DNA of 47,272 nucleotides from the NCBI GenBank assembly GCA_903857685.1, contig CAIOFO010000159.1, forward strand, positions 1-47,272, in the 5' to 3' direction. Origin of the DNA: an uncultured Alphaproteobacteria bacterium. Its GTDB lineage: Bacteria; Pseudomonadota; Alphaproteobacteria; Micropepsales; Micropepsaceae. Made by a program: the position numbers and the translations under genes. Under the pieces are notes generated by a model, which saw only the letters and a list, made by a program, of their open reading frames with translations, did not search any database and was not told where the DNA came from. Of this stretch, positions 1 through 19,285 are shown piece after piece (position 1 is the first letter of the stretch; every line of letters starts with the position of its first letter).

Positions 1-93
1 CGCGGCATCGTCCACCACATGCCCCGATTCCTTCAGCCCTTGAACCAGATAACGCTGGGCTTCCAGATCGTCCTCGACAACGAGAATGCGCAT
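1..93 (-). CDS. Response regulator, N-terminal fragment (cut by window edge)
   Basis: Only the first 31 codons are present. They read MRILVVEDDLEAQRYLVQGL and onward, which is the first beta strand and the acidic DD pair of a CheY-like receiver domain, as in OmpR-family regulators. The start ATG is at 93. The gene lies downstream of degP on the same strand with a 122-nt gap. In rhizobia the order cyc/ccm genes - degP - response regulator - histidine kinase is well known, so a kinase probably follows outside the window. The output domain cannot be seen. Confidence 0.85.
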   Translation of the reverse strand, partial: MRILVVEDDLEAQRYLVQGLKESGHVVDDAA

Positions 94-1778: not shown

Positions 1779-1885
1779 TTCAGGCTCCTTGTCGTCCGGG
1801 GGTTCTGCCGCCGGACCCGACCGTGCGGAAGATAGGGCCGCAGCATTGCGGGTTCCTCTCCAGACTATTAAAAAATTGAAATGTT

Positions 1886-2299
1886 TTATAGCAGGTCCGG
1901 CGGGAGTTCCGCCACTGCCCTGCGGGCTTTGCTGATGACAAAGATGGCCACAGCCCCCGCGCCAATCAAGACCAGAAACGGGGCAAGCCATAGAAAATAG
2001 GTGTCCGCCTGCAATGGCGGCTTCATCAGGATGAAGTTCCCGTAGCGCGCCTTCAGGTAATCCTCGATCTCCTGGTCCGAGCGGCCATCCGCCATCTGCT
2101 GGCGCACCAGGTGGCGCAGCTCTGCGGCAAGCGGCGCGCCGGATTCGTCAATGCTTTCGCCCTGGCACACCAGGCAGCGCAATTGGCGCTGCAGATAGCG
2201 GGCGCGGGCTTCCGTCGCCGGATCGGAGAATGTGTCGGTCACGGGAGCCGCACGCAGAGGCGCCGCAAGCAATATCAAAAGAAAGAGAAACTTTTTCAT
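1886..2299 (-). CDS. ccmH: Cytochrome c maturation protein CcmH (CycL)
   Basis: This 137-aa membrane-anchored periplasmic thiol protein acts with CcmF to keep apocytochrome c haem-binding cysteines reduced for haem ligation. It has a cleavable signal (residues 1-17), the LRCLVC motif with Cys42 and Cys45, and a C-terminal transmembrane segment near 98-120. In many relatives the motif is followed by QNQS; here it is QGES. The ATG at 2299 overlaps the ccmF stop by 4 nt (ATGA), so translation is probably coupled. An upstream in-frame ATG at 2356 lies inside ccmF and is unlikely. Confidence 0.95.
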   Translation of the reverse strand: MKKFLFLLILLAAPLRAAPVTDTFSDPATEARARYLQRQLRCLVCQGESIDESGAPLAAELRHLVRQQMADGRSDQEIEDYLKARYGNFILMKPPLQADTYFLWLAPFLVLIGAGAVAIFVISKARRAVAELPPDLL

Positions 2300-4212: not shown

Positions 4213-4652
4213 GTGCCGCCTTCCTTCCAGCGGCCGCTGCGCTTGAGCGCGTCCACCACTTCGGGGGGCATGTATTTCTCATCATGCTTGGCCAGGACTT
4301 CGGTGGCGACAAAGGTGCCCGTGCCATTGAGCACGCCCAGCGCCACCACCCCTTGTCCTTCGCGGAACAGCGCCGGCAGCACCCCGTTATATTCCACCGG
4401 CACTGTGCCCTTGCCGTCGGTCACCTGGAAACTGACATCGGCGCCGCTGCCGTGATGCACGCTGTTCTGCTGCACCAATCCGCCCAGGCGGAAGGCGATG
4501 CCCGGCTGGACTTGGTTGGCGGCGATATCACTGGGGCTGCGGAAATACTGGGTGTTCTGGCCCAGCTCGTAAACGATGCCCACGGCCAGCACCGCGCCCG
4601 CGGCCAGAATGGCGGCGACAAAGGCGAGGCGGCGGCGTTTCTTGGGCGTCAT
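4209..4652 (-). CDS. ccmE: Haem chaperone CcmE
   Basis: This 147-aa protein covalently carries haem in the periplasm and passes it to CcmF. It has an N-terminal anchor (residues 9-30), an OB-fold core with LFREGQGVVALG, and the haem-binding H-x3-Y motif at His123 and Tyr127 (LAKHDEKYMPPEV). The ATG begins directly after the stop of the upstream gene with no intervening base, and the end overlaps ccmF. Length and motifs are standard for the family. Confidence 0.97.
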   Translation of the reverse strand: MTPKKRRRLAFVAAILAAGAVLAVGIVYELGQNTQYFRSPSDIAANQVQPGIAFRLGGLVQQNSVHHGSGADVSFQVTDGKGTVPVEYNGVLPALFREGQGVVALGVLNGTGTFVATEVLAKHDEKYMPPEVVDALKRSGRWKEGGT

Positions 4653-5074: not shown

Positions 5075-5800
5075 CTAGCGGCGGAAGCCGCGACCGCCGC
5101 CGTGTCCGCCACGATAGCCGCCGCCGCCAAAGCCGAAACCGAGCGAAATGCCCGGCCCATAATAGGGCGGGTAATAATAGGGATAAGGCGCGTAATAGGC
5201 CGGCGGCGGCGGGCCATAGGCATAGTCCGGGTAAGCCGGGCCATAGGCATAGCGCTGGTCACCCGGCGGCGGGCCGCGGTCATCGGCCTCGTCCATGCAG
5301 GCATAATAGGCATCGGAATAGGCCCGCTCGACATTGGCGGCGGCACGGTGCGCATTGTCCGAGCCGACAGCGGTGCCGGCAATCAGGCCCGCGCCCGCGC
5401 CGATCAGGGCGCCGGCGCCGGCATTGTGGCTGGCGCCGCCGATTATGGCGCCCAGCGCGGCGCCGCCCAATGTGCCGCCGACCTGACTGCTGGTCTTGCT
5501 GTCACGCGCCGCCTCGCCCGGCGTGACATAGCCGGTGCGCGCCGCGGCATCGCGGCGGCAGAACATGTCGCGTGAACGCTGGTCCTGGGCCTGGGCATTG
5601 CCGGGCGCCCGATTGTCCGGCGCCTGATTGTCGGAGGCGCGCGGCGGCGGCGGACCGTCATTGCGGTCATCGTAGGAATTATTGTCGTTGTAGGTCTGGG
5701 CCGGCGGACCATCGGCGCGGCCTGCAGGACCGGACTGCGCCAAGGCGGCGGAACTCAGGAGCGCCAGCGCAAGCGCGGCCATGGTGGATATACGAATCAT
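5075..5800 (-). CDS. Exported glycine-zipper protein
   Basis: This 241-aa protein has a signal peptide ending near ALAQ (residue 19), an Asn/Asp/Pro-rich region, and a glycine-zipper membrane hairpin (GGTLGGAALGAIIGGA then GAGALIGAGAGLIAG) followed by VERAYSDAYYACM, typical of YMGG/Rick_17kDa-like glycine-zipper proteins. The C-terminus is Tyr/Pro- and then Gly-rich. It probably sits in the envelope. GAGG lies eight bases before the ATG at 5800. The upstream region carries a TATAAT -10 element and a GTTCAG-N5-GTTCAT repeat shared with two other promoters in the window, suggesting control by a two-component regulator. Confidence 0.85.
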   Translation of the reverse strand: MIRISTMAALALALLSSAALAQSGPAGRADGPPAQTYNDNNSYDDRNDGPPPPRASDNQAPDNRAPGNAQAQDQRSRDMFCRRDAAARTGYVTPGEAARDSKTSSQVGGTLGGAALGAIIGGASHNAGAGALIGAGAGLIAGTAVGSDNAHRAAANVERAYSDAYYACMDEADDRGPPPGDQRYAYGPAYPDYAYGPPPPAYYAPYPYYYPPYYGPGISLGFGFGGGGYRGGHGGGRGFRR

Positions 5801-5878: not shown

Positions 5879-5926
5879 ATTATAAAAGTTTTGGAACCGG
5901 ACAGGCCCCGTTCAGCCTGCGTTCAT
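5879..5926 (-). promoter_or_regulatory. Promoter and direct-repeat operator of the glycine-zipper gene
   Basis: A perfect TATAAT lies on the minus strand at 5884-5879, about 80 nt from the start codon. Upstream are two hexamers, GTTCAG (5910-5915) and GTTCAT (5921-5926), on the plus strand with an 11-bp period. OmpR-family regulators bind such tandem repeats. The same repeat occurs at 9974-9990 and 18493-18509. Here the repeat lies just upstream of where the -35 would be, which would suit activation. The assignment is inference. Confidence 0.5.
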
Positions 5927-5988
5927 CCGCGGCGAGGACGATAGCAACGATCCGAACCGCAACGGTGCGATGAACGATTGGGGGAACT

Positions 5989-7359
5989 TTACGCCGCCGT
6001 CGCAAGGGCGGCGCGGCCCCGCCGCTGCAACAGTTCGGCCTCCTGGTCACTGAACAACAGGCCGGTGAGTTCGACGCAAAGCTGAAACTGCTGTTCGGCG
6101 ATGGCGCGGCGGGCAGGATCGCTGCCCCGCAATTCCTTCATGACGTCCTCGACATAGCGGCGCAGATAAGCGCCGATGTCTTCACAAGCCGTTTTCTGCT
6201 TGGCGGCGAAGGAGCCGGCGGCCGCGAAATTGCGGCTGCCCACCACCAGGCGGACATATTTGAGAGCCAGTTCCCGCTTTTCGCCATCAATGGCGCGGCT
6301 GAAATCGGCGGTGCTGCCGGTGCCTTTCTGCATCGGCATGGCGGCGGTCAGTTCCCGCATCGCCCGGTCCATGAATCCGTCCATCACATTGCCGGTCTGG
6401 GCGCGATCCTTGAGCAGGCGCTGGCCCCATTCGCCGTCGCGCTTGATCTCGATTTCCTTGACAATGGCGCTGGACATTTCGGTGAACTGGGACATCTGAT
6501 CGAGCAACGTCTCGGCATCGAACAGCGGATGGCGGGTGGTGAGGATCACATCGCGCAGGCTCTCCATGCGCGTGAAAATAATTTCGCCCACCAGTCCCAT
6601 GTCGGTCTGCGAGATCAGCGTGTCGTTGTGCTGGCGGCAGATCTGCATCGGCAGGCGCAGCGCCTCCCAGGGCCGTGCCAGGCGGTTCATCGCCATCACG
6701 GCGACGTAAGGCGCCACATCGGGCAGGCGCGTCACCAGGTCGTCGTAAACGGCGCGCAGCTGCCAAAGCAGATCGTCATTGAGCTGCGGCACCGGACGCG
6801 GCAATACCTCCTGGATTCGCAGCATGTCCGCCCCGGCCGGAAGCAGCAGCGCCATTTCCTGGGCATCCGCCAGTATCAACGCATCGCCCAGAATGGTACG
6901 GGCCTTGGGATCGCTCGCGCCGGCCTTCAGCGCGGCACCCGCTTCGATCCAGAATGTTTCGGCGCGCCGCGTCGCTTCGGCATATTTGCGCGCCATGATC
7001 AGCGCCTTGGTCTCGGCGATGTAATTTTCCGTTTGTGCCGGCAAAAGGTCGCGGCCCAGCCACAGCCAGACCGGCAACAGGCTGGCGCGCGATATGCTGG
7101 CTTTCTGTTTTGTCTTGCGCGGGTTGGAGGTGAGCAGATCCTCGAACGGGCGGCAGAACAGGCGCAGCGGCGTCGGCGTGCGCCCGGCATTGGCGCCGCG
7201 CAGAACCGGACGCAGACCCTCCAGGATCGCGTCATGCGGCAGCGCATGGCCATCCAGCAGGCGGTCGGCTTCCACCGCGCTCGCCAGCCGTGCCGCAACA
7301 CTGCCGGGCAAACTCCCCAGAAATGTCTTGAGCAGACCTGTCTTGTCCTCAGAAATCAT
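5989..7359 (-). CDS. Conserved hypothetical protein, 456 aa
   Basis: I do not recognise a named domain. The protein is soluble-looking, predominantly helical and rich in Ala, Leu and Arg, with no signal peptide or transmembrane segment. Parts such as ARKYAEATRRAETFWIEAGAAL resemble TPR-like helical repeats. It begins MISEDKTGLLKTFLGSLPG and ends in LLQRRGRAALATAA. It stands alone: 188 nt before the glycine-zipper gene and 70 nt after the histidine kinase, all on the minus strand. The ORF is long, with coding-type codon use, so the gene is real, but no function can be given. Confidence 0.75.
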   Translation of the reverse strand: MISEDKTGLLKTFLGSLPGSVAARLASAVEADRLLDGHALPHDAILEGLRPVLRGANAGRTPTPLRLFCRPFEDLLTSNPRKTKQKASISRASLLPVWLWLGRDLLPAQTENYIAETKALIMARKYAEATRRAETFWIEAGAALKAGASDPKARTILGDALILADAQEMALLLPAGADMLRIQEVLPRPVPQLNDDLLWQLRAVYDDLVTRLPDVAPYVAVMAMNRLARPWEALRLPMQICRQHNDTLISQTDMGLVGEIIFTRMESLRDVILTTRHPLFDAETLLDQMSQFTEMSSAIVKEIEIKRDGEWGQRLLKDRAQTGNVMDGFMDRAMRELTAAMPMQKGTGSTADFSRAIDGEKRELALKYVRLVVGSRNFAAAGSFAAKQKTACEDIGAYLRRYVEDVMKELRGSDPARRAIAEQQFQLCVELTGLLFSDQEAELLQRRGRAALATAA

Positions 7360-7429
7360 GCGCAGGCTCCAAGACGGCTCCTAACCGCTTCTCGTGCCTA
7401 CATTATCCTGAACATCGTTAATGCCGTAT

Positions 7430-8863
7430 TTAGGAAGCCGGCAGGGCGGGCAGGGTGAGCACGGTTTTCAACCCTCCCAACTCGGACGTCTCCAGCACCA
7501 GAAACCCCGCGTAAAGCTTGGAAATATCGCGCACGATGGCCAGGCCCAATCCCGATCCCGGTACGCTTTCGTCCAACCTTTCCCCTCGTTCGCCCACCCG
7601 CTTGCGGTCCTCCGGCGACAGGCCCGGTCCATCATCCTCCACCGTCAAGACCAGCCGGGCGCCGTCCAGGACGGCGCGCGCCCGTACCCGGCTTCTTGCC
7701 CATTTGCCGGCATTGTCCATCAGGTTGCCCGCCATCTCTTCCAGGTCCTGGCGTTCGCCGCGGAAACAGATCGCGGCTGGACATTCGGCATCGATGACAA
7801 TGTCGCGCGCGGCATGGATGCGCGTCAGCACCCTGGCGAGATCGTGCAGCACCGGCTGAACCGGGGTGCGGTTGCCCAGCACATTGACGCTGCCGGCGGC
7901 GCGCGCCCGCGCCAGATAATGATCCACCTGGCGGCGCATCACCTCCACCTGGCGGCGAACCTGATCGCCCAGGGGACCGGGGGCGGCATCCGCTTCACTG
8001 GCCAGCACACTGAGCGGCGTCTTGAGAAAATGCGCCAGGTTGGAAACATGGGTACGGGCGCGCGCCACAATCTCGGCGCTGTGTTCGATCAGGGAATTGA
8101 GTTCTTCGGCCAGGGGCGCGATCTCCGCCGGGAAATTGCCCTCCAGTTGCTGCGCCTTGCCGTCGCGGATGCGGTGCAGCGCGTCCTTGAGCCGCCGCAG
8201 CGGCAGCAGCCCGATCCGCACCTGCAGCAGGATCGCCACCACCAGGCCAAGCCCCAGCAGCGCGAAGGACCAGATCAGCGTGCCGTTGAAGACGCTGCTT
8301 TCCGCATCCACCGCCGCCAGATCGCCCGCCACCATGAAGGTATAGGCGCGGCTGTCATTCTGGTCGGGCGTGGAGGCGATGGGAAATTCCACCCGCCGCG
8401 ACAGCACGCGCAACGCCTGGTTCTCCGGCCCCGCGGCATAGCCGTAAGTGAGCACGCCGTTCTTCACCTCGGACGTCGGTGTGATGCCGTGATCGAACAG
8501 GGAATGGGATATCTGTCCGCCCGGCTGGCTTTGTGTCACCGGCTTGATCTCGTAATACAGGCCGGAATAGACGCGATCGAATTCGTGATTGACGAAACGG
8601 TCCTGCAGCACCACCCCGCCATCCTGGTCTGGCTGGGCGGCGGCAATCAACCCATCCATGTCGCCGCTGAGACGGCTGTCGAAATTATCCAGCACGGCGC
8701 TGCGAAAGGCGCTGGACAGGACATAGCCTCCCACCGCCAGGCCCAGCATGGTCCAGACAGCCGCCGCCGCGATCAGCCGCGCGGCCAGCGAGTTCAGGCG
8801 GAAATGTGGGCTAAGCCGGAAGATGTTTGTCGCCAAGGGCGGGATCTTCGAGACTATAGCCAA
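7430..8863 (-). CDS. Membrane sensor histidine kinase (PhoQ/FeuQ-like)
   Basis: This 477-aa kinase has two transmembrane segments (about 30-52 and 195-217) flanking a periplasmic sensor of about 140 residues, a HAMP-like linker, and an H-box LAHFLKTPLSVL with His278. The kinase core has an N-box (NLMDNAGKWA), DDGPGL and GSGLGLAIV. The H-box form LAHxLKTPL is typical of PhoQ/FeuQ-type sensors that read envelope or osmotic conditions. The start at 8863 overlaps the upstream regulator gene by 53 nt; an in-frame TTG at 8836 would shorten the overlap. It is the partner of the regulator at 8811-9497. Confidence 0.92.
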   Translation of the reverse strand: MAIVSKIPPLATNIFRLSPHFRLNSLAARLIAAAAVWTMLGLAVGGYVLSSAFRSAVLDNFDSRLSGDMDGLIAAAQPDQDGGVVLQDRFVNHEFDRVYSGLYYEIKPVTQSQPGGQISHSLFDHGITPTSEVKNGVLTYGYAAGPENQALRVLSRRVEFPIASTPDQNDSRAYTFMVAGDLAAVDAESSVFNGTLIWSFALLGLGLVVAILLQVRIGLLPLRRLKDALHRIRDGKAQQLEGNFPAEIAPLAEELNSLIEHSAEIVARARTHVSNLAHFLKTPLSVLASEADAAPGPLGDQVRRQVEVMRRQVDHYLARARAAGSVNVLGNRTPVQPVLHDLARVLTRIHAARDIVIDAECPAAICFRGERQDLEEMAGNLMDNAGKWARSRVRARAVLDGARLVLTVEDDGPGLSPEDRKRVGERGERLDESVPGSGLGLAIVRDISKLYAGFLVLETSELGGLKTVLTLPALPAS

Positions 8864-9497
8864 GGCCGCGCACCGTCTGGATCAGGTCGGCATCCAGTTT
8901 CTTGCGCAGGCGGCCGACGAACACCTCGATGGTGTTGGAGTCGCGGTCGAAATCCTGGTCGTAAAGATGCTCCACCAGTTCGGTGCGCGACACCACCTTG
9001 CCACGATGATGGGCTAGATAGGCTAGCAGGCGATATTCCAGGCTGGTCAGCTTGACGGGATTGCCGTCCAGGGTGACGCGGCTGGCGCGGGTGTCGATCC
9101 GCAGCGGCCCGATCTCGATATCGGCGGTGGCAAAGCCCGCAGCGCGGCGCAACAGGGCGCGCAGGCGCGCCAGCAGTTCCTCGGTGTAAAAGGGCTTGGC
9201 CAGGTAATCATCGGCGCCGGCATCAAAGCCCGCCACCTTGTCGCTCCAGCGGTCGCGCGCGGTCAGGATCAGCACCGGCATTTTCTTGCCCGCCTTGCGC
9301 CACTGTTCCAGCACGCGCACGCCGTCCATCTTGGGCAGGCCCAGGTCCAGTACAACCGCGTCATAGGGTTCGGTGTCGCCCAGGAAATGGCCTTCCTCGC
9401 CGTCGCCGGCCGTGTCCACGACATAGCCGGCATCGCCCAGCGCCTTTTTCAGAAGCCGCTGCAGGTCCTTGTCGTCTTCCACCAGCAGAATGCGCAT
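8811..9497 (-). CDS. OmpR-family response regulator (PhoP/FeuP-like)
   Basis: This 228-aa regulator has a receiver domain with the acidic pair Glu7-Asp8-Asp9, phospho-acceptor Asp51 (VVLDLGLPKMDG) and the conserved Lys in YLAKPF. A winged-helix output domain follows (TSLEYRLLAYLAHHRGKVVSRTEL, then NTIEVFVGRLRKKLD). It lies between a PepSY-like exported protein (6-nt gap) and its kinase, in one operon. The 11-bp-period direct repeats found before that operon and at two other envelope genes are the expected shape for its binding site, which would make it autoregulated; this is inference. Confidence 0.95.
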   Translation of the reverse strand: MRILLVEDDKDLQRLLKKALGDAGYVVDTAGDGEEGHFLGDTEPYDAVVLDLGLPKMDGVRVLEQWRKAGKKMPVLILTARDRWSDKVAGFDAGADDYLAKPFYTEELLARLRALLRRAAGFATADIEIGPLRIDTRASRVTLDGNPVKLTSLEYRLLAYLAHHRGKVVSRTELVEHLYDQDFDRDSNTIEVFVGRLRKKLDADLIQTVRGLGYSLEDPALGDKHLPA

Positions 9498-9503
9498 GCC
9501 CGA

Positions 9504-9950
9504 TCAGCGTCCGCGACGCCGCTCCCTTTCGTCACCATACCCGCGGCCGTCACCGCCGCGCCATGGCCCGGATTCGCGGGAATCGCGGCGCTCCCCATAA
9601 CCATAGGGCATGGGATAGGAAGGGGCTGGCGCGAAATAGGCTCCCGGCCCCGGACCGTCAAAATTGTCTCGCCCCGGGGACGCGCCCAGGACGCGGCCGG
9701 TGCGGGCATCGGCATCCAGCCATTCGATGCGGCCGTCCGGCGTCATCCATTTGAGGTGATAATGCATCGTGCCGCCGGGGCCGGGGGTGGGACCGTCGGC
9801 ATCAAAGAACTGGCCGGGATACTCGCGGCGGATGCCGGGCAGGATGCGGTCGAGCGGCAGGACGCCAGGCTCGCGTAGCGGTTGTGCCGTCGCCGGTCCG
9901 GCCGCCAGCGCGCCCAAGGCCAAAATCATCAGGAAAAAGCTGGAGCGCAT
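9504..9950 (-). CDS. Exported PepSY-like protein
   Basis: This 148-aa protein has a signal peptide (residues 1-22, ending ATAQ) and one PepSY-like domain at about 30-90, including LDRILPGIRREYPG, then YHLKWMTPDGRIEWLDADARTGRVLG. The C-terminal third is Pro, Gly, Tyr and Arg rich. PepSY proteins next to two-component systems often modulate or report envelope stress. It is the first gene of the PepSY-regulator-kinase operon. A -10-like TAATAA ends only six bases before the ATG, so the transcript would be leaderless or nearly so, unless the true start is the Met at codon 8. Confidence 0.85.
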   Translation of the reverse strand: MRSSFFLMILALGALAAGPATAQPLREPGVLPLDRILPGIRREYPGQFFDADGPTPGPGGTMHYHLKWMTPDGRIEWLDADARTGRVLGASPGRDNFDGPGPGAYFAPAPSYPMPYGYGERRDSRESGPWRGGDGRGYGDERERRRGR

Positions 9951-9956
9951 GGCGCT

Positions 9957-9990
9957 TTATTAGCCTTGGGGAAATGAACCCAGAATGAAC
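9957..9990 (-). promoter_or_regulatory. Promoter and direct-repeat operator of the PepSY-regulator-kinase operon
   Basis: On the minus strand GTTCAT-N5-GTTCAT occupies 9990-9974 with an 11-bp period. Eleven bases further comes TAATAA (9962-9957), a likely -10. The Spy-like gene has the same arrangement: repeat, 12 bases, then TAAGAT. The repeat would overlap the -35 position, as for many OmpR-family activators. The site could also serve the divergent gene starting at 10079. Confidence 0.55.
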
Positions 9991-10078
9991 ACCCCGTCCA
10001 GAACCGGTTCAGGCGCCCTCACCTAGGGTGTGGGGCATGGGAAGCGCCTTGCCTCCCCGAAAAATCAAGGAGACGAGC

Positions 10079-10411
10079 ATGTATAACATCAAAACTATTT
10101 TGACCGCAGCGTCTTTGGCGGTCCTGGCAGCTGCGGGTTCCGCCAGCGCCGCGCCCTGGGACAATCACCGGGATGATCGCGATCGCCGTCCGGTAGAGCG
10201 TCAAGACCCCTATTTCAACCGGGCGCATCAGCCGATCGTGGTTCGCGAGCGCGTCTATGATTCCCTGCGCCTGCATCACTATCGCGGCGTCGGCGATCCT
10301 GCCTTCGTGCACGGCCATTATGTCGTGAAGAGCTTCAATCGCTTCGGCCGTGTCGTGTTTGTGGAAGTTGATCCCTATAGCGGCGCCTTCCTGGGCGAAA
10401 TTCGCATCTAG
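10079..10411 (+). CDS. Small exported protein, possibly PepSY-like
   Basis: This 110-aa protein has a signal peptide (about 25 residues, ending SASA), a basic, Arg/Asp/His-rich linker, and a C-terminal domain ending FGRVVFVEVDPYSGAFLGEIRI. The VEVDPYSG ending resembles the last strand of PepSY domains, which is weak evidence. AAGGAGA lies six bases before the ATG at 10079. It is divergent from the PepSY-regulator-kinase operon and probably shares its operator. A strong terminator follows at 10469. Confidence 0.75.
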   Translation: MYNIKTILTAASLAVLAAAGSASAAPWDNHRDDRDRRPVERQDPYFNRAHQPIVVRERVYDSLRLHHYRGVGDPAFVHGHYVVKSFNRFGRVVFVEVDPYSGAFLGEIRI

Positions 10412-10468
10412 AGCTTGGGCCGAAAGTCCGTGGTATGCCCCTCCCCATAGGACTTTAGGTTGTCAAGG

Positions 10469-10502
10469 AAAAGCCCGCGCCTCTCCCGAGACGCGGGCTT
10501 TT
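10469..10502. terminator. Rho-independent terminator, probably bidirectional
   Basis: The arms AAAAGCCCGCG (10469-10479) and CGCGGGCTTTT (10492-10502) pair perfectly over 11 bases around a 12-nt loop. T-runs are present on both strands. It sits between the plus-strand gene ending at 10411 and the minus-strand gene ending at 10505, so it could end both transcripts. Confidence 0.9.
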
Positions 10503-10504
10503 CG

Positions 10505-11077
10505 CTATGTGCTGAAATCCTGGCCGCCATGGACCATGTCGTAGGGGATGAAATTGTGCCCGGATAGCCGCTTCAGGGTCTTTTCCAGAATGAGCCTGAC
10601 TTCGGCCCGCGAGCGACGCGTCGCTTCCAGCATGGCTTTGTTATTGAGCGGCAGTTGTGCGCTCTGCTTGCCATGGGGCCCGGGAAATCCCAGCGACACC
10701 ATGATATTGTTCGCCACGCAGCGGGTGACAAAATCAATGAAGCGCGGCTCGCGGATCGTCCGCAGCGGATTGCCCACCAGGACCAGGATCAATCCGAAAT
10801 TGGCATTGTACTGCGGCGGGATATTGCCGACTTCCAGTTCCACGAACACGCCGGACAAATCCGGCCGCCAGTCCGCGTCAATCAGTTCCAGCCGCCGCCA
10901 GCCGCAATAATAGGTGCGGCAGACGTCCGGGCGGGCTTCATAGATGGCGCAGCCTCTGGCCGTGCAATTGCGGCAGACGGCGCCGGATATTTTCTGGATG
11001 TCCGGCTTGTCGATAGCCGGAACGATGCAACATATGTTGCAGTTGCCGCATTCACGTCCCGGAACCAGAGCATTCAT
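10505..11077 (-). CDS. YkgJ/UPF0153-like Cys-rich protein
   Basis: This 190-aa soluble protein starts with a cysteine cluster (ECGNCNICC), continues with CRNCTARGCAIYEARPDVCRTYYC, and then has a non-Cys C-terminal part. This pattern matches the zinc/iron-chelating YkgJ-type family, whose cysteines are thought to hold an iron-sulfur cluster or zinc. The biochemical role is unknown. It is monocistronic, convergent with the upstream exported protein across the terminator at 10469, and divergent from the penicillin-binding protein gene. No clear ribosome-binding site precedes the ATG at 11077. Confidence 0.8.
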   Translation of the reverse strand: MNALVPGRECGNCNICCIVPAIDKPDIQKISGAVCRNCTARGCAIYEARPDVCRTYYCGWRRLELIDADWRPDLSGVFVELEVGNIPPQYNANFGLILVLVGNPLRTIREPRFIDFVTRCVANNIMVSLGFPGPHGKQSAQLPLNNKAMLEATRRSRAEVRLILEKTLKRLSGHNFIPYDMVHGGQDFST

Positions 11078-11247
11078 GTTTCAAAACGGTGCGTGAACTT
11101 GTGGCCGGGCGCGGTACTTTGGCGAAAACTAGGAAATAGTGGCGCGCGATTCAACCTTTACCCGTCAACGGCTTGGCACAATCGGCCTGCAACCCGTGAT
11201 GCGGCGGGGCCTTGAAACCGCCGCAAATATCGGTGAGCTATCCCGCA

Positions 11248-13338
11248 ATGTTACGACTGCCCGAGGATCTTGAAGAGCGGCTGCGCCTCTGGCTGGCGCA
11301 TGGCCATCGCTGGGCGCCCCTCTTCACAATCATCCTGACCGCCCTGATCGTGCCGGCTGCGGTGCTGTTCCTGCTGCCGTCGCTGCTGGGCCTGTTCGCC
11401 GCCCCGCTCAATCCCGGCGTGGACCTTTATGCGGTCAACCGGCCGCTGGGCTTCACCTTTCTCGACGCCGGCGGCGAGGATGTCGGCCATCGCGGCGCGG
11501 TGGTGGGCGAGCGCCTGCATCTGGAAGACATGCCCGCCTATCTGCCGGCAGCCTTCATCGCCATGGAAGACCGCCGCTTCTATGTCCATAACGGCATTGA
11601 TCCGGTGGGACTGGCGCGCGCGCTGCTGCTGGATTTGCGCGCCCGCAAGGCCGTGGCCGGCGGTTCCACCATCAGCCAGCAAACCGCCAAGATTGTTTAC
11701 ACCGCCCAGGAACGCACCATGTCGCGCAAGCTGACCGAGCTGATAGACGCGGCAGGCCTGGAGCAATCGCTGAGCAAGAAGCAGATACTCGAACTTTATC
11801 TCAACCGCATCTATCTGGGCTCGGCGGCCTATGGCGTGGATGGAGCGGCGCATGTCTATTTCGGTGTTTCGGCGCGCAATCTCTCTTTGTCCCAGGCCGC
11901 GATGCTGGCGACGCTGACGCGGGCGCCCTCGGTATTCTCGCCGCGCCGCGACCTGCCCCGCGCCCAGGCGCGCGCCGCCAGGGTGCTGGATTCCATGGTG
12001 GATACCGGCGCGATCACCAGTGCCCAAGCCGATGAAGCCAAGGCGCATCCCGCCATCATCAGCGACCGCGCCAGCACAGATGCGCGCAATTTCTTCCTCG
12101 ACACCGCCGCCGACCAGGCCAAGGCGCTTGCGACGCAAGGCGGCACCGTGCCCAATGCCGATCTTATCGTGCACACCACCCTGGAGCCGAAGCTGCAAGA
12201 GGCTGCCCGCCTCGCCGCCACCGATGTGATCGACAAATACGGCAAGAAGGACCGCGTCCACGAAGCCGCGGTGGTCATGATGAAGCCGGATGGCGCTGTC
12301 TCGGCCCTGCTCGGCGGCACCGATTACGATACGTCCGTGTTCAACCGCGCCATCCAGGCGCGCCGCCAGCCCGGCTCGGCGTTCAAGCCCTTTGTCTATC
12401 TGGCGGCGCTGGAAGCGGGCATCTCGCCCTGGGATACGCGCGACGACGAGCCGGTGGACATTAACGGCTACAAGCCCACCAATTTCGGCAACGAGGAATA
12501 CGGCACCCTGACCCTGGCCGATGCCCTGGCCCATTCGGTCAACACCATCACCGTCAACCTGGTCCAGGAAGTCGGGGTCGACAAGGTGATCGGCGCGGCG
12601 CGGCGCACCGGCATCGTTTCGCCGCTGACGCCCACCCCGTCACTGGCGCTGGGCACCAGCGAAGTCACGCCGCTGGAACTGACCGGCGCCTATGCCGCCT
12701 TCGCCAATGGCGGCTATCGCGTCTATCCCTATTTCGTCACGGAGGTGGACCAGGGCGGCAAGGTGCTTTACCGCCGCCGCGCTCCCACGCCGCAGCGTGT
12801 GATCGGCAGCGCGATTGACCGCGACCTGCTGGCGATGATGTGGAATGTGATCATCGCCGGCACCGGTGGCGGCGCCTCGCTGGCGCCGCGCGAGGCAGCC
12901 GGCAAGACCGGCACCACCCAGAATTCCCAGGATGCCTGGTTCGTGGGTTTCACCACCGATTACGTCGCGGGTGTCTGGGTGGGCAACGACGACAATACCG
13001 CCACCCGCGGCGTCACCGGCGGCACTTTGCCCGCCATGATCTGGAAAAGCGCCATGCGCGCCGCCGAGAAAGGCCTGCCGCTGAAACCGCTGGACCGCTC
13101 GCCGCCCCAGGCACCCAATGAGGAAGCGCCGTTCCCCGGCGGCGAAATCCGGCCGCAAATGCGCGACGATGAAGCCGGCGCGGCGATGGCGCAGATCCAG
13201 GCCCAGGGCATGCCGGACATGCCGTCCGCACCCGAGACCCGCCATCGCAGCGGCGGCCTGCTCGGCTGGCTGTTCGGCAGTGACGCGGATGAACCGCCGC
13301 CTCCGCCGCCGCGGCGCGACTATCAGGGCGGCAACTGA
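11248..13338 (+). CDS. Class A penicillin-binding protein (transglycosylase/transpeptidase)
   Basis: This 696-aa bifunctional enzyme polymerises and crosslinks peptidoglycan at the outer face of the inner membrane. It has a cytoplasmic N-terminus, one membrane anchor (about residues 24-50), a GT51 transglycosylase domain (EDRRFYVHNGID near 107, GGSTISQQTAK) and a transpeptidase domain with SxxK at Ser377-Lys380, SVN at Ser430 and KTG at Lys553. The C-terminal 80 residues are Pro/Gly-rich. I chose the ATG at 11248; an in-frame TTG at 11212 or GTG at 11233 would add 12 or 5 residues. Confidence 0.93.
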   Translation: MLRLPEDLEERLRLWLAHGHRWAPLFTIILTALIVPAAVLFLLPSLLGLFAAPLNPGVDLYAVNRPLGFTFLDAGGEDVGHRGAVVGERLHLEDMPAYLPAAFIAMEDRRFYVHNGIDPVGLARALLLDLRARKAVAGGSTISQQTAKIVYTAQERTMSRKLTELIDAAGLEQSLSKKQILELYLNRIYLGSAAYGVDGAAHVYFGVSARNLSLSQAAMLATLTRAPSVFSPRRDLPRAQARAARVLDSMVDTGAITSAQADEAKAHPAIISDRASTDARNFFLDTAADQAKALATQGGTVPNADLIVHTTLEPKLQEAARLAATDVIDKYGKKDRVHEAAVVMMKPDGAVSALLGGTDYDTSVFNRAIQARRQPGSAFKPFVYLAALEAGISPWDTRDDEPVDINGYKPTNFGNEEYGTLTLADALAHSVNTITVNLVQEVGVDKVIGAARRTGIVSPLTPTPSLALGTSEVTPLELTGAYAAFANGGYRVYPYFVTEVDQGGKVLYRRRAPTPQRVIGSAIDRDLLAMMWNVIIAGTGGGASLAPREAAGKTGTTQNSQDAWFVGFTTDYVAGVWVGNDDNTATRGVTGGTLPAMIWKSAMRAAEKGLPLKPLDRSPPQAPNEEAPFPGGEIRPQMRDDEAGAAMAQIQAQGMPDMPSAPETRHRSGGLLGWLFGSDADEPPPPPPRRDYQGGN

Positions 13339-13385
13339 TTTCATCTTCCGCTTCGCCGTTCCATGGCCTGTGCTATAAGCCCGTC

Positions 13386-14369
13386 ATGGGGAAATTGATC
13401 ACGGCGCTGATTCTTTTGCTTGCCTTGCCGGCGTCAGCGGCACCCTTGATTCACATCACCTTCGTCACCGACTGGAAGGCGCAGGCCGAGCATGGCGGCT
13501 TCTATGAAGCGCTGGCGGAAGGCGTCTACGCCCGCTACGGCCTGGACGTCACCATTCGCGAAGGCGGCCCGGATGTGAATGTCCCGCAATTGCTGGCGGG
13601 CGGCGCGGCGGACTTCGGCATCGGCTCCAATGCCTTTGTGGTGATGAATTTGGTGCAGCAGAAGGTGCCGCTGCGTGCCGTGATGGCGATCTTCCAGAAA
13701 GACCCGCAGGTGCTGATCAGCCATCCGCGTCACGACATGAATTCCCTGGCGGAGATGAAAGACCATCCCATCCTGATTTCGGCTGCCACCATGACCAGCT
13801 TCTGGCCCTGGCTGCGCGCCAAATTCGGCTTCCAGGACACGCAGATCCGCAAATACACCAACAACCTGGCGCCGTTTGTGGTGGACCCCAATGCGATTCA
13901 GGAGGGCTATCTCACCAGCGAGCCTTACACCATCCTGCAACAGGCGCATTTCACGCCCAAGGTTTTCCTGCTGTCGGATTACGGCTATCCCGGCTACGCC
14001 AACATGGTGCTGACAACGCAGAAGTGGATTGATACCAATCCCAACGCGGTGCAGAAATTTTTCAATGCCAGCAAGCAGGGCTGGTACGACTATCTCAATC
14101 GCGACCCCGGGCCCGGCAATGCGCTGATCAAGCGCGACAATCCCGACATGACGGATGCGATCATTGCCCAGTCCATCGCCAAGATGAAACAGTATCAGCT
14201 GGTGATGGGCGGCGACGCGCCCGCTTACGGGCTCGGCGCGATGACGGACAAACGTTGGGGGCAATTCTACCAGACCATGGCGGGCCAAGGGCTTTATCCC
14301 AAGGGCATGGATTATACCAAGGCCTACGACCTGCGCTTCATGCGCCATACATTTCAGAATTTTCAATGA
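13386..14369 (+). CDS. ABC transporter substrate-binding protein, NMT1/THI5 type
   Basis: This 327-aa exported protein has a signal peptide (residues 1-18) and an NMT1/THI5-like solute-binding fold, including [19 protein letters not shown] near the N-terminus. That opening is shared by binding proteins for thiamine precursors (ThiY) and for riboflavin-like compounds (RibY), so a pyrimidine or flavin-type ligand is plausible. The ligand cannot be decided from sequence. It heads a three-gene importer operon, 47 nt after the penicillin-binding protein gene. I see no TPP or FMN riboswitch in that short gap. The stop overlaps the ATPase start (ATGA). Confidence 0.88.
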
Positions 14370-15088
14370 GCCTGCTGACGCTGCGCGGAGTCGGCAAGCG
14401 CTTTTCCAGCGGCACCCAGGCGCTGTCGGATTTGAGTTTCCAGGTCAGCAATGAAGAATTTGTCTCTCTGCTGGGTCCCAGCGGCTGCGGCAAGTCCACC
14501 GCGCTGCGCCTGATCGCCGGGCTGATCGCGCCGGACAGCGGCGAAATAATCTGGAGCGGCGCACGCCCCGAGCTGGCTTTCGTCTTTCAGGAAGCAACCC
14601 TGATGCCATGGGCCGATGCCCTGACCAATGCACGCCTGCCGCTGGACTTGAAGAAAGTGCCGCGCGGCGAGGCCAATTCCCAGGCCGCTGCTGCGCTGGC
14701 AAGACTGGGCCTCAAGGGATTTGAATCCGCCTATCCCCGCGAATTGTCGGGCGGCATGAAGATGCGCGTTTCCATCGCCCGCGCCCTGGCCGCCAGGCCC
14801 AGGCTGCTCTTGATGGATGAACCTTTCGCGGCGCTGGACGAAATTACCCGCGTCGGCCTGAATGACGATCTGCTGACGCTGGCGCGGGAAGACGGCATCA
14901 CCGTGATCTTCGTCACCCATAGCGTGATGGAAAGCGCCTATCTTTCCAGCCGGGTGCTGGTGATGAGCCCGCGTCCCGGCCGCATCAAGGCGGAAATCGC
15001 ATTGCCGCCCGGACCGCGCGACCGCCTGTCGCCGGCCTTCGCGGCAGGGCAGGCCAGGGTCGCCGGCGCCCTGCTGGCGGTGGCATGA
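14366..15088 (+). CDS. ABC transporter ATP-binding protein (NitT/TauT-type)
   Basis: This 240-aa ATPase energises the importer. It has a Walker [10 protein letters not shown], a Q-loop FQEATLMPW, the signature [15 protein letters not shown], Walker [13 protein letters not shown], and the H-loop THS. The FQEATLMPW form is typical of the SsuB/TauB/ThiZ group. Its start overlaps the binding-protein stop by 4 nt and its end overlaps the permease start by 4 nt, so all three are translated from one transcript. Confidence 0.94.
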
Positions 15089-15870
15089 AGCGGTTTGTCG
15101 ACATCCTGTTGCCGCTGCTGCTGGGCGCTTCGCTGCTGGGCTTTTGGGAATGGTTCGTGGCGGCGCGGCAGATTCCGCCCTATGTGCTGCCGGCGCCCAG
15201 CGCCATCGCCCGCGCCTTCAGCGATAATTTCACCTCGCTGATGGCGTCGCTGCTGGCAACGCTCAGCGTGACGGTGCAGGCCTTCCTGGCCGCCTTGGTC
15301 GCGGGCGTGTCGGTGGCAATCCTGTTCAGCCAGAGCCGGCTGGCAGAACGCGCGCTTTATCCCTATGCCGTGATCCTGCAAGTGACCCCGGTGGTGGCGA
15401 TCGCGCCGCTGATGCTGATCTGGATCGGCTTCGACCGCGTCAATGCCGCGCTGGTCCTGATCGCGGCGCTGGTGGCGTTCTTTCCCATTCTCTCCAACAC
15501 CACGCTGGGTCTTAAATCGGCGGACTTCAATCTGATGGAATTGATGCGCCTTTACGGCGCCTCGCGCTGGCAGATTCTGTGGCGGCTGCAATTGCCCACG
15601 GCGCTGCCTTACCTGCTCGGTGCCTGCCGCATTGCCGGCGGCCTGGCGTTGATCGGCGCGGTGGTGGCGGAGTTCGTTGCCGGCAGCGGCACCGCGACCG
15701 GGCTGGCCTGGCGCATCGTCGAAGCCGGCAATCGGCTGGAAATCGCCACCATGTTCGCGGCGCTGGGCCTGCTGGCCTTCCTGGGTGTGGCGATTTTCGC
15801 CCTTCTGTCGGCGGTGGAATTTTGGCTGCTGCGGCGCTGGCATGAGAGCGCCCTCGCCCGCCAATCGTGA
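15085..15870 (+). CDS. ABC transporter permease (NitT/TauT-type)
   Basis: This 261-aa inner-membrane subunit has about six transmembrane helices. The EAA-type cytoplasmic loop that contacts the ATPase is visible as [20 protein letters not shown]. It completes a three-gene importer together with 13386-15088 and overlaps the ATPase gene by four bases. Size and topology are normal for the SsuC/TauC/ThiX group. The operon ends here, followed by an AT-rich intergenic region that serves the sulfite reductase genes. Confidence 0.93.
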
Positions 15871-15901
15871 TGCGATTCAGTCCATTGCGAATAACCGCAT
15901 A

Positions 15902-15950
15902 TAACAGATGGAAATTGTAGTTCGACTAATACTACAAATTATCGCTGTTA
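15902..15950. promoter_or_regulatory. Nested inverted repeat upstream of the sulfite reductase operon
   Basis: The inner arms TTGTAGT (15915-15921) and ACTACAA (15931-15937) and the outer arms TAACAG (15902-15907) and CTGTTA (15945-15950) are both perfect, and both are centred on base 15926. Two further pairs (15912-15913 with 15939-15940) match. The stretch is much more AT-rich than its surroundings. It lies 40 nt before the DUF2849 start. A dimeric or tetrameric repressor or activator of sulfur assimilation is the simplest reading; an RNA hairpin is an alternative. Confidence 0.55.
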
Positions 15951-15990
15951 AAGTCTTGATTTCGGCGGCGCAACATGGGACTAGGCGGCT

Positions 15991-16302
15991 ATGGCGCACC
16001 CTGCCGCAACCGGACCCCAGATGCTCACGGCCAACTGCCTGCGGCAGGGCGATGTCCTGTACTGGAAATCCGGCGGCTGGGTTGCGGAATTCACCCAGGG
16101 CGATGTCTTCGCCGACCCGGCCGCCGCCGCTGCGGCGCTGGAAGCGGCGCAGAAATCCGTCACGGAAAATCGCGTCGTGTCGCCCTATCTGTTCGAGGTG
16201 CGTGAACAGAGCGGCAAAATCCGCCCGGTGAAGGAACGCGAGATCGTGCGCGCCGCCGGGCCGAGTGTGCGCACCGATCTGGGCAAGCAGGCACATGTAT
16301 AG
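15991..16302 (+). CDS. DUF2849 protein (sulfite reductase-associated)
   Basis: This 103-aa soluble protein belongs to DUF2849, a short alphaproteobacterial family found directly before cysI. Recognisable parts are LRQGDVLYWKSGGWV and the central FADPAAAAAALEAAQ, with a C-terminal PYLFEVRE. The role is unproven; a small accessory or siroheme-related function is inferred only from gene order. The ATG at 15991 is preceded by a weak GGCGG site. The end overlaps the cysI start by 8 nt. Confidence 0.85.
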   Translation: MAHPAATGPQMLTANCLRQGDVLYWKSGGWVAEFTQGDVFADPAAAAAALEAAQKSVTENRVVSPYLFEVREQSGKIRPVKEREIVRAAGPSVRTDLGKQAHV

Positions 16303-17941
16303 ATACGATGAATTCGACGCCCAGTTCGTTGCCGAGCGCGTGAAGCAGTTTCGCGGCCAGGTGGCCCGCCGGCTGTCGGGTGAATTGACCGACGACCAGT
16401 TCAAGCCGCTGCGCCTGATGAACGGGCTCTATCTGCAGCTGCATGCCTATATGCTGCGGGTGGCGGTGCCTTACGGCACGTTGAGCGGCAAACAGATGCG
16501 CATGCTGGCCCATATCGCGCGCAAATATGACAAGGGCTATGGCCATTTCACCACCCGCCAGAACATCCAGTATAATTGGCCCAGACTGGTGGATGTGCCC
16601 GATCTTCTGGACGACCTGGCCAGCGTCGAGATGCACGCCATCCAGACCAGCGGCAATTGCGTGCGCAATGTCACCGCCGATCATTTCGCCGGCGCCGCCA
16701 AGGACGAGATCGAGGACCCCCGCCCGCTGGCCGAGATCATCCGGCAATGGTCCAGCCTGCATCCCGAATTTGTCTTCCTCGCGCGCAAATTCAAGATCGC
16801 AGTGGGCGGCGACAAGGCCGACCGCGCCGCGCTGCAATGGCATGACATGGCGGTCGAGATCGTGCGCAATGCGCAGGGCCGCACCGGTTACAAGGTGATC
16901 GCCGGCGGCGGCATGGGACGCATTCCCTATATTGCCTATGTGATGAAAGAGTTCGTGGAGCGGGAAGATATTCTCGCCTATCTGGAGGCGGTGCTGCGCG
17001 TCTATAACCAGGACAGCCGCCGCGACAATATCCACAAGCAGCGCATCAAGATCCTGATCAACACCATCGGGCCGGAGGAATTCCGCCGCAGAGCCGAACG
17101 CGAGTTCGACGAAATCAAGAAGAATGGCAGCCTGCAACTGCCGCAGGAGGAACTGGCGCGCATCACCGCCTATTTCGCACCGCCCCAATTTGAAAGCGTG
17201 GCGGACGAAATGCCGAAAGGTGACGCGGCTTTCTCCAATTGGGTCAAGACCAATGTCCATGCCCATCGCGCGCCCGGCTATACCATCGCCACCATCACGC
17301 TCAAGAGCATCGGGGCGGTGCCGGGCGACGCCTCCGCCGACCAGATGGACGCCATCGCCGACCTGATGGACCGCTACAGCCTGGACGAAATCCGCGTCAG
17401 CCATGAGCAGAATCTGGTGCTGCCGCATGTGCGCAAGAAAGACCTGCCCGCCATTCATGCTCGGCTCCTGGCACTGGGCCTGGCGACGCCCAATGCCGGG
17501 CTGATCACCGACATCATCGCCTGCCCGGGACTGGATTATTGCGATCTGGCCAATGCGCGCTCCATTCCCGTCGCCCAGGACATTGCCCGCAAATTCGCCG
17601 ATCTGGACCGCCAGCATGAGATTGGCGAACTCAAGATCAAGATTTCCGGCTGCATCAATGCCTGCGGCCATCATCACGCCGGCCATATCGGCATCCTCGG
17701 CGTCGACAAGAAAGGCGTGGAATTCTACCAGCTCCAGCTCGGCGGCTCGGGTGCGGAAGACGCCAGCATCGGCGACATTCTGGGTCCGGCCTTTGGCGAG
17801 CATGAAATCGCCGATGCCGTGGAGCGGGTGGTGAACATCTATCTGAAGGAACGCGCGCCGGGCGAACGGTTTCTCGACACCTACCGCCGCATCGGCATGG
17901 CCAAGTTCAAGACCGCCGCTTATGAAAAGGCGATGGCGTGA
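16295..17941 (+). CDS. cysI: Assimilatory sulfite (nitrite/sulfite) reductase, haemoprotein subunit
   Basis: This 548-aa enzyme reduces sulfite to sulfide with six electrons for cysteine synthesis, using coupled siroheme and [4Fe-4S] cofactors. The cluster ligands are clear: Cys410 and Cys416 (ACPGLDYC), Cys453 and Cys457 (GCINAC). The substrate-binding arginine region appears as TSGNCVRNVTADHFAG. Two nitrite/sulfite reductase ferredoxin-like repeats flank them. I chose the ATG at 16295 (MYRYDEFD) over an upstream ATG. The stop overlaps the GTG of the next gene. Many alphaproteobacteria have cysH here; it is absent from this operon. Confidence 0.93.
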   Translation: MYRYDEFDAQFVAERVKQFRGQVARRLSGELTDDQFKPLRLMNGLYLQLHAYMLRVAVPYGTLSGKQMRMLAHIARKYDKGYGHFTTRQNIQYNWPRLVDVPDLLDDLASVEMHAIQTSGNCVRNVTADHFAGAAKDEIEDPRPLAEIIRQWSSLHPEFVFLARKFKIAVGGDKADRAALQWHDMAVEIVRNAQGRTGYKVIAGGGMGRIPYIAYVMKEFVEREDILAYLEAVLRVYNQDSRRDNIHKQRIKILINTIGPEEFRRRAEREFDEIKKNGSLQLPQEELARITAYFAPPQFESVADEMPKGDAAFSNWVKTNVHAHRAPGYTIATITLKSIGAVPGDASADQMDAIADLMDRYSLDEIRVSHEQNLVLPHVRKKDLPAIHARLLALGLATPNAGLITDIIACPGLDYCDLANARSIPVAQDIARKFADLDRQHEIGELKIKISGCINACGHHHAGHIGILGVDKKGVEFYQLQLGGSGAEDASIGDILGPAFGEHEIADAVERVVNIYLKERAPGERFLDTYRRIGMAKFKTAAYEKAMA

Positions 17942-18447
17942 GCAAGCTCATCAAAGTTGTCAATAAGGAAGTGGGGGGCGCCTTCACCGCCGACACCTAT
18001 ACCCAGGTTGCCGATGATGCGGCGTTGCCCGAAGGACCGGTGCTGGTTTCGCTGGCGCGCTTTGAACGGGAGCGCGAGGCGCTCCTGGCGCGCAACACCC
18101 CGGTGGGGGTGCTGCTTCAGTCCGACCAGTCGCCGGAAAAATTGGGCGATGATGTCACCCGGCTGTCCCTGGTGGCGCTGGATTTCCCCAAGTTCCGCGA
18201 TGGCCGCGCTTTTTCCTGGGCCCGCATGCTGCGCACCAGGCTGGGCTTTACCGGCGAAATTCGCGCGGTTGGCGATTTTCTCTATGACCAGATCAACTAC
18301 CAGCACCGCGTCGGCTTTGACGCGTGGGCCGTTCCGGACACATTCCGGCTGGAAGATTTCGCCCGCGCCTTGGCGGAAATGACCAACGTGTATCAGCCCA
18401 GCGCCGATGGCCGCAAAACCATCCGCGAATTGCGCGCCGGGCGGTAA
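17938..18447 (+). CDS. DUF934 protein (sulfite reductase-associated)
   Basis: This 169-aa protein belongs to DUF934, found with cysI/cysH in proteobacteria. The family core is visible as FPKFRDGRAFSWARMLRTRLGF, followed by GEIRAVGDFLYDQ and RVGFDAW. Its biochemical role is not established. It starts with GTG at 17938, overlapping the cysI stop by four bases (GTGA), so it is translationally coupled and is the last gene of the operon. The DUF934 protein was once annotated as an oxidoreductase, without proof that I know of. Confidence 0.9.
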   Translation: MSKLIKVVNKEVGGAFTADTYTQVADDAALPEGPVLVSLARFEREREALLARNTPVGVLLQSDQSPEKLGDDVTRLSLVALDFPKFRDGRAFSWARMLRTRLGFTGEIRAVGDFLYDQINYQHRVGFDAWAVPDTFRLEDFARALAEMTNVYQPSADGRKTIRELRAGR

Positions 18448-18492
18448 TTCGCGATGCGGCGCCAGACGCGCCCGCAACATGAAATTTCAGAC

Positions 18493-18527
18493 ATTCATAT
18501 ACGGTTCAGGTCATCCCGGCATAAGAT
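18493..18527 (+). promoter_or_regulatory. Promoter and direct-repeat operator of the Spy/CpxP-like gene
   Basis: ATTCAT (18493-18498) and GTTCAG (18504-18509) form a direct repeat with an 11-bp period, then a 12-nt gap leads to TAAGAT (18522-18527), a likely -10. The gene starts at 18560. The layout matches the site before the PepSY operon at 9957-9990, where the gap is 11 nt. Binding by the OmpR-type regulator of this window is inferred. Confidence 0.55.
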
Positions 18528-18559: not shown

Positions 18560-19285
18560 ATGCGTAAAGCCCTTCTTCCCATGCTGGTATCCCTGGCGTT
18601 GTGCGGCGCCGCGACCACCGCGATCGTCATGTCCAGCGCGCGCGCCCAGCCGGCTCCGCACAAGCCGCTGATGGTGGCGGCATCCGGCATGCAGCTCGCC
18701 GCCAACGACCCGCCGCCCCGCAGCATGCCCGAAACGGGCGACCGGACGGCGCGCCTGCAAATGATGTGCAACGATCTTTTTGCGCGCCAAACGGCGCAGA
18801 TGGCCTATCTGGAAACCAGCCTGCAGCTCACCGCCGCCGAGCGTCCTCTGTTCCAGCACTGGAAGGACGCCAAGCTCAGCATCGCCCATCGCCATGCCGA
18901 TGCCTGCGCCCAGCACCCGGTATCACAGCACCAAGCCCCCGGCGGCGCGTCGGCGGATCGGCAGCAACGCGATGCGCAGGATCGCGCGCAGCCGAGCCCG
19001 GCCGACCAGATGGCGCGTGAAGAAGACATGCTGAAGCAGCGCCTTGCCGATCTTCAGACCGAGCGCCCGGCACTGGAAGCCTTCTACAAGGCGCTCTCAC
19101 CCACGCAGAAAATGCAGCTGGCGCACGCCGGCATGCAGGACCGCATGGGCGCTGACATGGCCGGCATGATGCGCCGTCACATGTTCGCTGATGCCATGGG
19201 GCCGCGCGGCCAGAGGGGAGGCGGCCCGATGGGAGAACGCCCGATGGCACCGCCGCCGCAGGACGCGCCGCCGCCGGAGCGCTGA
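18560..19285 (+). CDS. Periplasmic Spy/CpxP-like (LTxxQ-type) protein
   Basis: This 241-aa protein has a signal peptide (about 29 residues, ending ARAQ), a helical central region with LTAAERPLFQHWKDA and LSPTQKMQLAHA, both close to the LTxxQ signature of Spy/CpxP/ZraP-like chaperones, and a Met/Gly/Pro-rich tail. Spy-type proteins buffer unfolded proteins or metals in the periplasm under envelope stress. AAGGAGC lies about nine bases before the ATG at 18560. Its promoter shares a direct repeat with the PepSY-regulator-kinase operon. A terminator follows directly. Confidence 0.8.
   Translation: MRKALLPMLVSLALCGAATTAIVMSSARAQPAPHKPLMVAASGMQLAANDPPPRSMPETGDRTARLQMMCNDLFARQTAQMAYLETSLQLTAAERPLFQHWKDAKLSIAHRHADACAQHPVSQHQAPGGASADRQQRDAQDRAQPSPADQMAREEDMLKQRLADLQTERPALEAFYKALSPTQKMQLAHAGMQDRMGADMAGMMRRHMFADAMGPRGQRGGGPMGERPMAPPPQDAPPPER

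Follow-up and report, generated by a model that had tools for sequence, protein, structure and literature searches.

Direct repeats of the form TTCAK-N6-TTCAK in a 47,272-nt contig of an uncultured alphaproteobacterium (the window, by which we mean this whole stretch of DNA) are very probably FeuP boxes, predicted to be bound by the FeuP orthologue encoded in the middle operon of the window and to serve both that operon and genes for envelope proteins. The observations behind this assignment are site conservation, a fixed promoter geometry, regulator similarity and gene order. It provides a sharply defined promoter element for the FeuP system (half-site, 6 nt, half-site, 11 nt, TA), found across many alphaproteobacteria, extends a system described from rhizobia to a new lineage, and names envelope targets that are directly testable. 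The initial annotation of this DNA had supposed an autoregulated envelope regulon, so far unnamed, under the OmpR-family regulator of the middle operon. Comparative evidence (site conservation and likeness to FeuP) supports such a regulon as a prediction from sequence, and the guess at an unnamed one gives way to a named system: the operon is a feuNPQ-like locus, and the motif had already been proposed for FeuP (available portion of PMC3616915).

Repeats and genes in the window

The features discussed below are, in order of position:

216-4652, minus strand: syntenic neighbours degP (216-1991), ccmH (1886-2356), ccmF (2296-4212) and ccmE (4209-4652)
5075-5800, minus strand: exported glycine-zipper protein (Gly-zipper_Omp, 26.2 bits, cut-off 25)
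5911-5926, plus strand: TTCAK-N6-TTCAK direct repeat 5' of the glycine-zipper gene, reversed relative to the gene
7430-8863, minus strand: FeuQ-like sensor histidine kinase (HATPase_c; best NCBIfam profile PhoQ, under its cut-off)
8811-9497, minus strand: OmpR-family response regulator, FeuP orthologue (Pfam Response_reg and Trans_reg_C)
9504-9950, minus strand: exported protein, first gene of the operon, FeuN-like by position (itself without a Pfam or NCBIfam match)
9957-9962, minus strand: TAATAA, -10-like hexamer of the operon promoter, 11 nt from the repeat and ending 6 nt before the ATG
9974-9989, minus strand: TTCAT-N6-TTCAT direct repeat (exact match) in the promoter of the feuNPQ-like operon
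9997-10012, plus strand: degenerate fourth repeat, TCCAG-AACCGG-TTCAG, facing the divergent exported gene
10024-10029, plus strand: TAGGGT at the -10 position of the degenerate site, 11 nt past the repeat
10079-10411, plus strand: divergent exported protein (weak PepSY match)
18494-18509, plus strand: TTCAT-N6-TTCAG direct repeat (exact match) in the promoter of the Spy-like gene
18522-18527, plus strand: TAAGAT, -10-like hexamer of the Spy-like promoter, 12 nt from the repeat
18560-19285, plus strand: Spy/CpxP-like exported protein (LTXXQ, 25.1 bits, cut-off 24.3)

An exact pattern search finds TTCAK-N6-TTCAK three times in the window, against a mean of 0.30 matches (maximum 2) in 100 dinucleotide shuffles of it, none of which reached three. 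The repeats are thus beyond chance and lie where they had been reported, although each reported span was one base too long. The earlier list of three is complete for exact matches, and the window additionally holds the degenerate fourth site at 9997-10012. The distances to a -10-like hexamer, 11 nt to TAATAA and 12 nt to TAAGAT, are as had been claimed. Each repeat does precede an exported-protein gene, but the 5911-5926 site lies on the plus strand and the glycine-zipper gene on the minus strand, so that this site is upstream in reversed orientation.

Tandem 11-bp repeats are targets of OmpR-family regulators, and the earlier placement of such a regulator within the middle operon was borne out by its two Pfam domains. 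The glycine-zipper and Spy/CpxP-like labels likewise stand, both profile cut-offs being passed. For the first operon protein, previously labelled PepSY, the protein itself has no Pfam match, but relatives at the same position pass the PepSY cut-off. Because TAATAA and the ATG of this gene are six bases apart, the operon transcript may be leaderless or almost so; the relatives look alike in this respect.

Likeness to FeuNPQ of rhizobia

A protein search of plasmid records matched a Sinorhizobium meliloti record with annotated feuN, feuP and feuQ. The window regulator is 71.2% identical over 222 aa to S. meliloti FeuP, compared with 42.0% for a second S. meliloti regulator, and shares with FeuP the stretch DRDSNTIEVF(V/I)GRLRKK in the C-terminal domain. 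Its domain make-up is also that of PmrA, PhoP, QseB and PhoB of the OmpR family, which are among the higher-scoring NCBIfam profiles for it, but the scores stay far below the curated cut-offs (215.9/330, 203.5/336, 198.9/345 and 187.3/296.2 bits, respectively). The window kinase, at the same operon position as FeuQ, aligns with it at 32.5% identity over 474 columns (E 2e-60). Both loci run from a small exported protein through regulator and kinase to ccm genes and another regulator-kinase pair. In S. meliloti, feuN-feuP-feuQ is followed by a small gene and by ccmI, ccmE and ccmF, with the regulator-kinase pair lying at some distance beyond; the window has extra genes between the kinase and ccmE, then ccmF, ccmH, degP and, cut by the left end, the first residues of a second regulator. 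The S. meliloti record itself (CP090106.1, L276) is titled plasmid pSymB; at 3.7 Mb and with feuNPQ and ccm genes on it, it may have been given the wrong replicon label.

The first operon protein differs from S. meliloti FeuN in being longer (148 vs 83 aa) and in having no direct match to it: BLASTP gives none, and a direct profile comparison gives a probability of 7.5. Intermediates from the same position nonetheless link the two, with profile probabilities of 99.0, 98.9 and 94.8, so that the homology would be only transitive. Two of these linking intermediates pass the Pfam PepSY cut-off, whereas neither the window protein nor S. meliloti FeuN has a Pfam match; this suggests, at the level of profiles, that FeuN and PepSY proteins may be related. 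An earlier profile comparison (99.8) was discarded because close relatives were mixed into both sets.

The S. meliloti feuN promoter reads TTCATTTGCCATTCAG-N11-TAATGA, the same repeat with 11 nt to TA as at the first-gene promoter of the window. According to the available portion of a 2013 S. meliloti study, TTCA-N7-TTCA (Motif 3), which equals the window motif, lies upstream of 12 genes, five of them FeuP-dependent, and of six of nine other FeuP-dependent genes, feuN included, and was proposed there as the FeuP site (PMC3616915). The accessible parts of other papers describe FeuN as a periplasmic negative regulator of FeuQ and FeuP as controlling ndvA (PMC12486126, PMC5539429, PMC5929573), and in the material available osmotic change is the reported stimulus of FeuNPQ in S. 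meliloti. Unlike in that system, the candidate targets here are the divergent exported, Spy-like, glycine-zipper and RcnB-domain genes, and the lineage of the window has reverse-oriented sites. The literature searched, whose coverage leaves out most subscription papers, yielded neither an account of this regulon for the lineage of the window nor a paper on Rhizomicrobium two-component systems and envelope stress.

Conservation of the operon promoter

A close match to the regulator (83-95% identity) occurs in 34 of the 40 other genomes of the genus. Thirty operon loci were fetched, one of which (L021) is cut by a contig end and was left out; in all 29 uncut loci the repeat precedes the operon and TA follows 11 nt on. 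In 26 of these a strict site lies no more than 800 nt from the regulator gene, in one it lies at -814, and in two the first half is TTCAC. Since the 26 aligned sites were chosen by the strict pattern, conservation of their half-sites is partly built in, but that of TA at 11 nt (26 of 26) is not. The divergent site (a YYCA-type half, six bases, TTCAK) stands at the identical offset in 24 of the 26 aligned loci, and all 24 have YA 11 nt past it.

The geometry was also followed in named alphaproteobacteria, some of whose records are the same genomes as in our own set. From 262 relatives of the regulator 80 were kept, and two of these (L142 and L186) had less than 1 kb upstream, leaving 78 feuP-like loci. 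Within 1 kb upstream of the regulator gene, 66 of the 78 have the strict site, 8 a loose one only and 4 neither. None of 80 control stretches, each of 1 kb and beginning at the gene itself, contains the strict site. TA falls exactly 11 nt past the strict site in every one of the 66.

Sites at Spy-like and glycine-zipper genes

Among close orthologues of the Spy-like gene, 12 of 13 carry a strict site at most 150 nt away, nine of them in forward orientation, 61-97 nt before the gene, and three in reverse, 107-109 nt before it. (Excluded were L086 and L087, whose genes are represented by their other pieces L105 and L103; the fragment L101; and one match without a locus.) The 43,284 nt of these loci contain no other strict site. 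At less similar LTXXQ loci, none of 14 has a strict site within 250 nt, which limits the claim to close orthologues. Because the site changes orientation among orthologues, a single promoter mechanism does not explain it.

Nine of 10 orthologues of the glycine-zipper gene share its reverse site, at a distance of 121-136 nt upstream, and this is again the only strict site in their loci (none other in 34,170 nt); L199 and L204 (unusable start) and L206-L217 (weaker or partial matches) were set aside. By eye, a TTGACA- or TAGACA-like element lies downstream of the reverse site in several relatives, which would fit activation from upstream.

Genome-wide counts and alternative explanations

The genome of the window (G000) has 15 exact matches at the 11-bp period, compared with 40 at two control spacings (8 and 9) together and 761 over the 31 spacings from 0 to 30, or about 25 each. 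The total number of motifs is thus not raised in this genome, and we rejected raw motif enrichment as evidence. The apparent enrichment over a backward-read control (15 vs 5) was also rejected, since that control alters the word and not the spacing. Over G000-G022 there are 462 matches at the 11-bp period and 724 at two control spacings, a 1.28-fold excess per spacing. As for enrichment before exported-protein genes, which the initial annotation expected of a genome scan, the signal is modest: counting only positions that are not inside a called gene and are no more than 150 nt 5' of a gene for a putative exported protein, 6 of the 15 exact sites qualify, as do 2 of 30 at the control spacings (10 of the 40 having no locus; Fisher P = 0.011); one of these two control positives looks cytoplasmic. 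Without the three window sites the fraction is 3 of 12 (P = 0.13), so that this result rests largely on the window's own sites. Here 'exported' means a hydrophobicity rule applied to in-house gene calls rather than a signal-peptide predictor, and the rule misses L006, where the site precedes a short open frame that begins like a signal peptide.

These counts are what favours a chance reading, in which the three matches are random occurrences of a short word in GC-rich DNA: G000 holds no more of the motif than of the same words at other spacings, and 9 of its 15 exact sites do not lie outside called genes within 150 nt before an exported gene. Against it, the sites are conserved at all three promoters, the Spy-like and glycine-zipper loci contain no further strict site, and TA is constant in the named loci. 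Together these refute the chance reading for the window sites, for which we judge it extremely improbable; it does hold for many other matches in the genome. Our first hypothesis was a system of the UzcRS type, a metal-responsive regulator of envelope genes in Caulobacter. The available text on UzcR in C. crescentus describes similar targets, 52 of 66 being genes with a secretion signal or membrane segment, but gives the motif CATTAC-N6-TTAA (PMC8963506), which is absent from the three window 16-mers. In sequence and in the order of its genes, the window operon moreover corresponds to feuNPQ. On these grounds of motif and operon we dropped UzcRS, to which we now give next to no credence.

A more serious alternative, though still an unlikely one, is that a second OmpR-family regulator reads some or all of the sites as well, in which case they would be real but FeuP would share the regulon. 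Six of the 41 genomes of the genus have no close match to the regulator, and four of these keep strict sites: at the Spy-like gene in G024 and G017 (forward) and in G016 (reverse), and at the glycine-zipper gene in G014, with a further one in G024 before a gene like one of those on contig C14 of G000. G014 and G024 are almost complete, and G016, which keeps the reverse site, has a regulator with 52% identity. Against this, the G016 and G017 genomes are incomplete (82 and 89%). In G024 and G014 the feuNPQ block is absent and its flanks adjoin on one contig, with recognisable remnants of neighbouring genes (L106 at about 10700 and L108 at about 9930-9960, respectively), so that recent loss of the block is the simpler reading, as the sequence of both junctions suggests. 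The neighbouring, degP-linked regulator is disfavoured as a reader of the sites: its sequence is different where FeuP has the shared C-terminal stretch, and the first 20 kb of the G024 contig, where it lies, contain no strict site. Finally, the most constant site of all is the one in the operon's own promoter.

Further candidate targets

The three positives outside the window are two exported genes on contig C14 and one RcnB-domain gene on contig C141 of G000; one C14 16-mer is identical in G024, where it precedes a gene that by eye resembles an orthologue. The refined pattern TTCAKN4SGTTCAKN11TA has 47 matches in the 41 genomes, compared with 3 for its backward control. By coordinates, 30 of the 47 lie before the regulator gene, 1 is an identical copy on another G011 contig, and 16 are elsewhere. 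We sorted these 16 by eye: 11 stand in front of genes whose products are putatively exported or membrane proteins, 4 precede other genes (two of which resemble glmS), and 1, L068 on the divergent side of the G005 operon, has no clear gene. Ten of the 11 proteins have signal-like starts and one has a membrane anchor; among the ten, L283 runs for only 25 residues before the contig end. RcnB and MlaC are among the Pfam domains encoded behind refined sites. The repeat precedes RcnB-domain or similar exported genes of three genomes (L010, L057 and L283), and from these sequences RcnB-type genes are candidates for further regulon members.

Proposed mechanism

Taking the repeats as FeuP boxes, we infer binding, activation, a modulator and a signal along the following lines. 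The FeuQ-like kinase would phosphorylate the regulator, which would then bind two TTCA half-sites separated by one helical turn. In the promoter of the operon, the downstream one of the two would stand in for a -35 element, 11 nt from a -10 element starting with TA; the downstream subunit of OmpR-family activators can occupy the -35 position, with which a fixed distance from half-site to -10 is consistent. From this placement we propose that the regulator activates its own operon. The back-to-back site would serve the divergent exported gene, and the other sites the Spy/CpxP-like gene, the glycine-zipper gene (from its reverse-oriented upstream site) and a few more, including the RcnB-domain gene and the two exported proteins of contig C14. 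The first operon protein might hold the kinase in check, the role that FeuN has in S. meliloti.

A broader scenario, which we offer tentatively and at somewhat less than even confidence, is that FeuP acts at two geometries that interchange in evolution, one forward and replacing the -35 element, the other reverse and farther upstream. A regulon of exported proteins (Spy, PepSY, RcnB and MlaC types), reaching beyond cyclic glucan export, might then be old and widespread, and a PepSY protein might be the ancestor of FeuN.

Other features of the window

Between the genes for the kinase and the glycine-zipper protein runs an open frame of 456 residues (5989-7359, minus strand) that matches no Pfam or NCBIfam profile. 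At the left end, positions 1-93 (minus strand) encode the first 31 residues of the second OmpR-family regulator, adjoining degP. Contig C42, which carries at its edge (G000:C42:9-671) a complete regulator of the same type, with 43% identity to the feuP-like one, may be the neighbour of the window contig.
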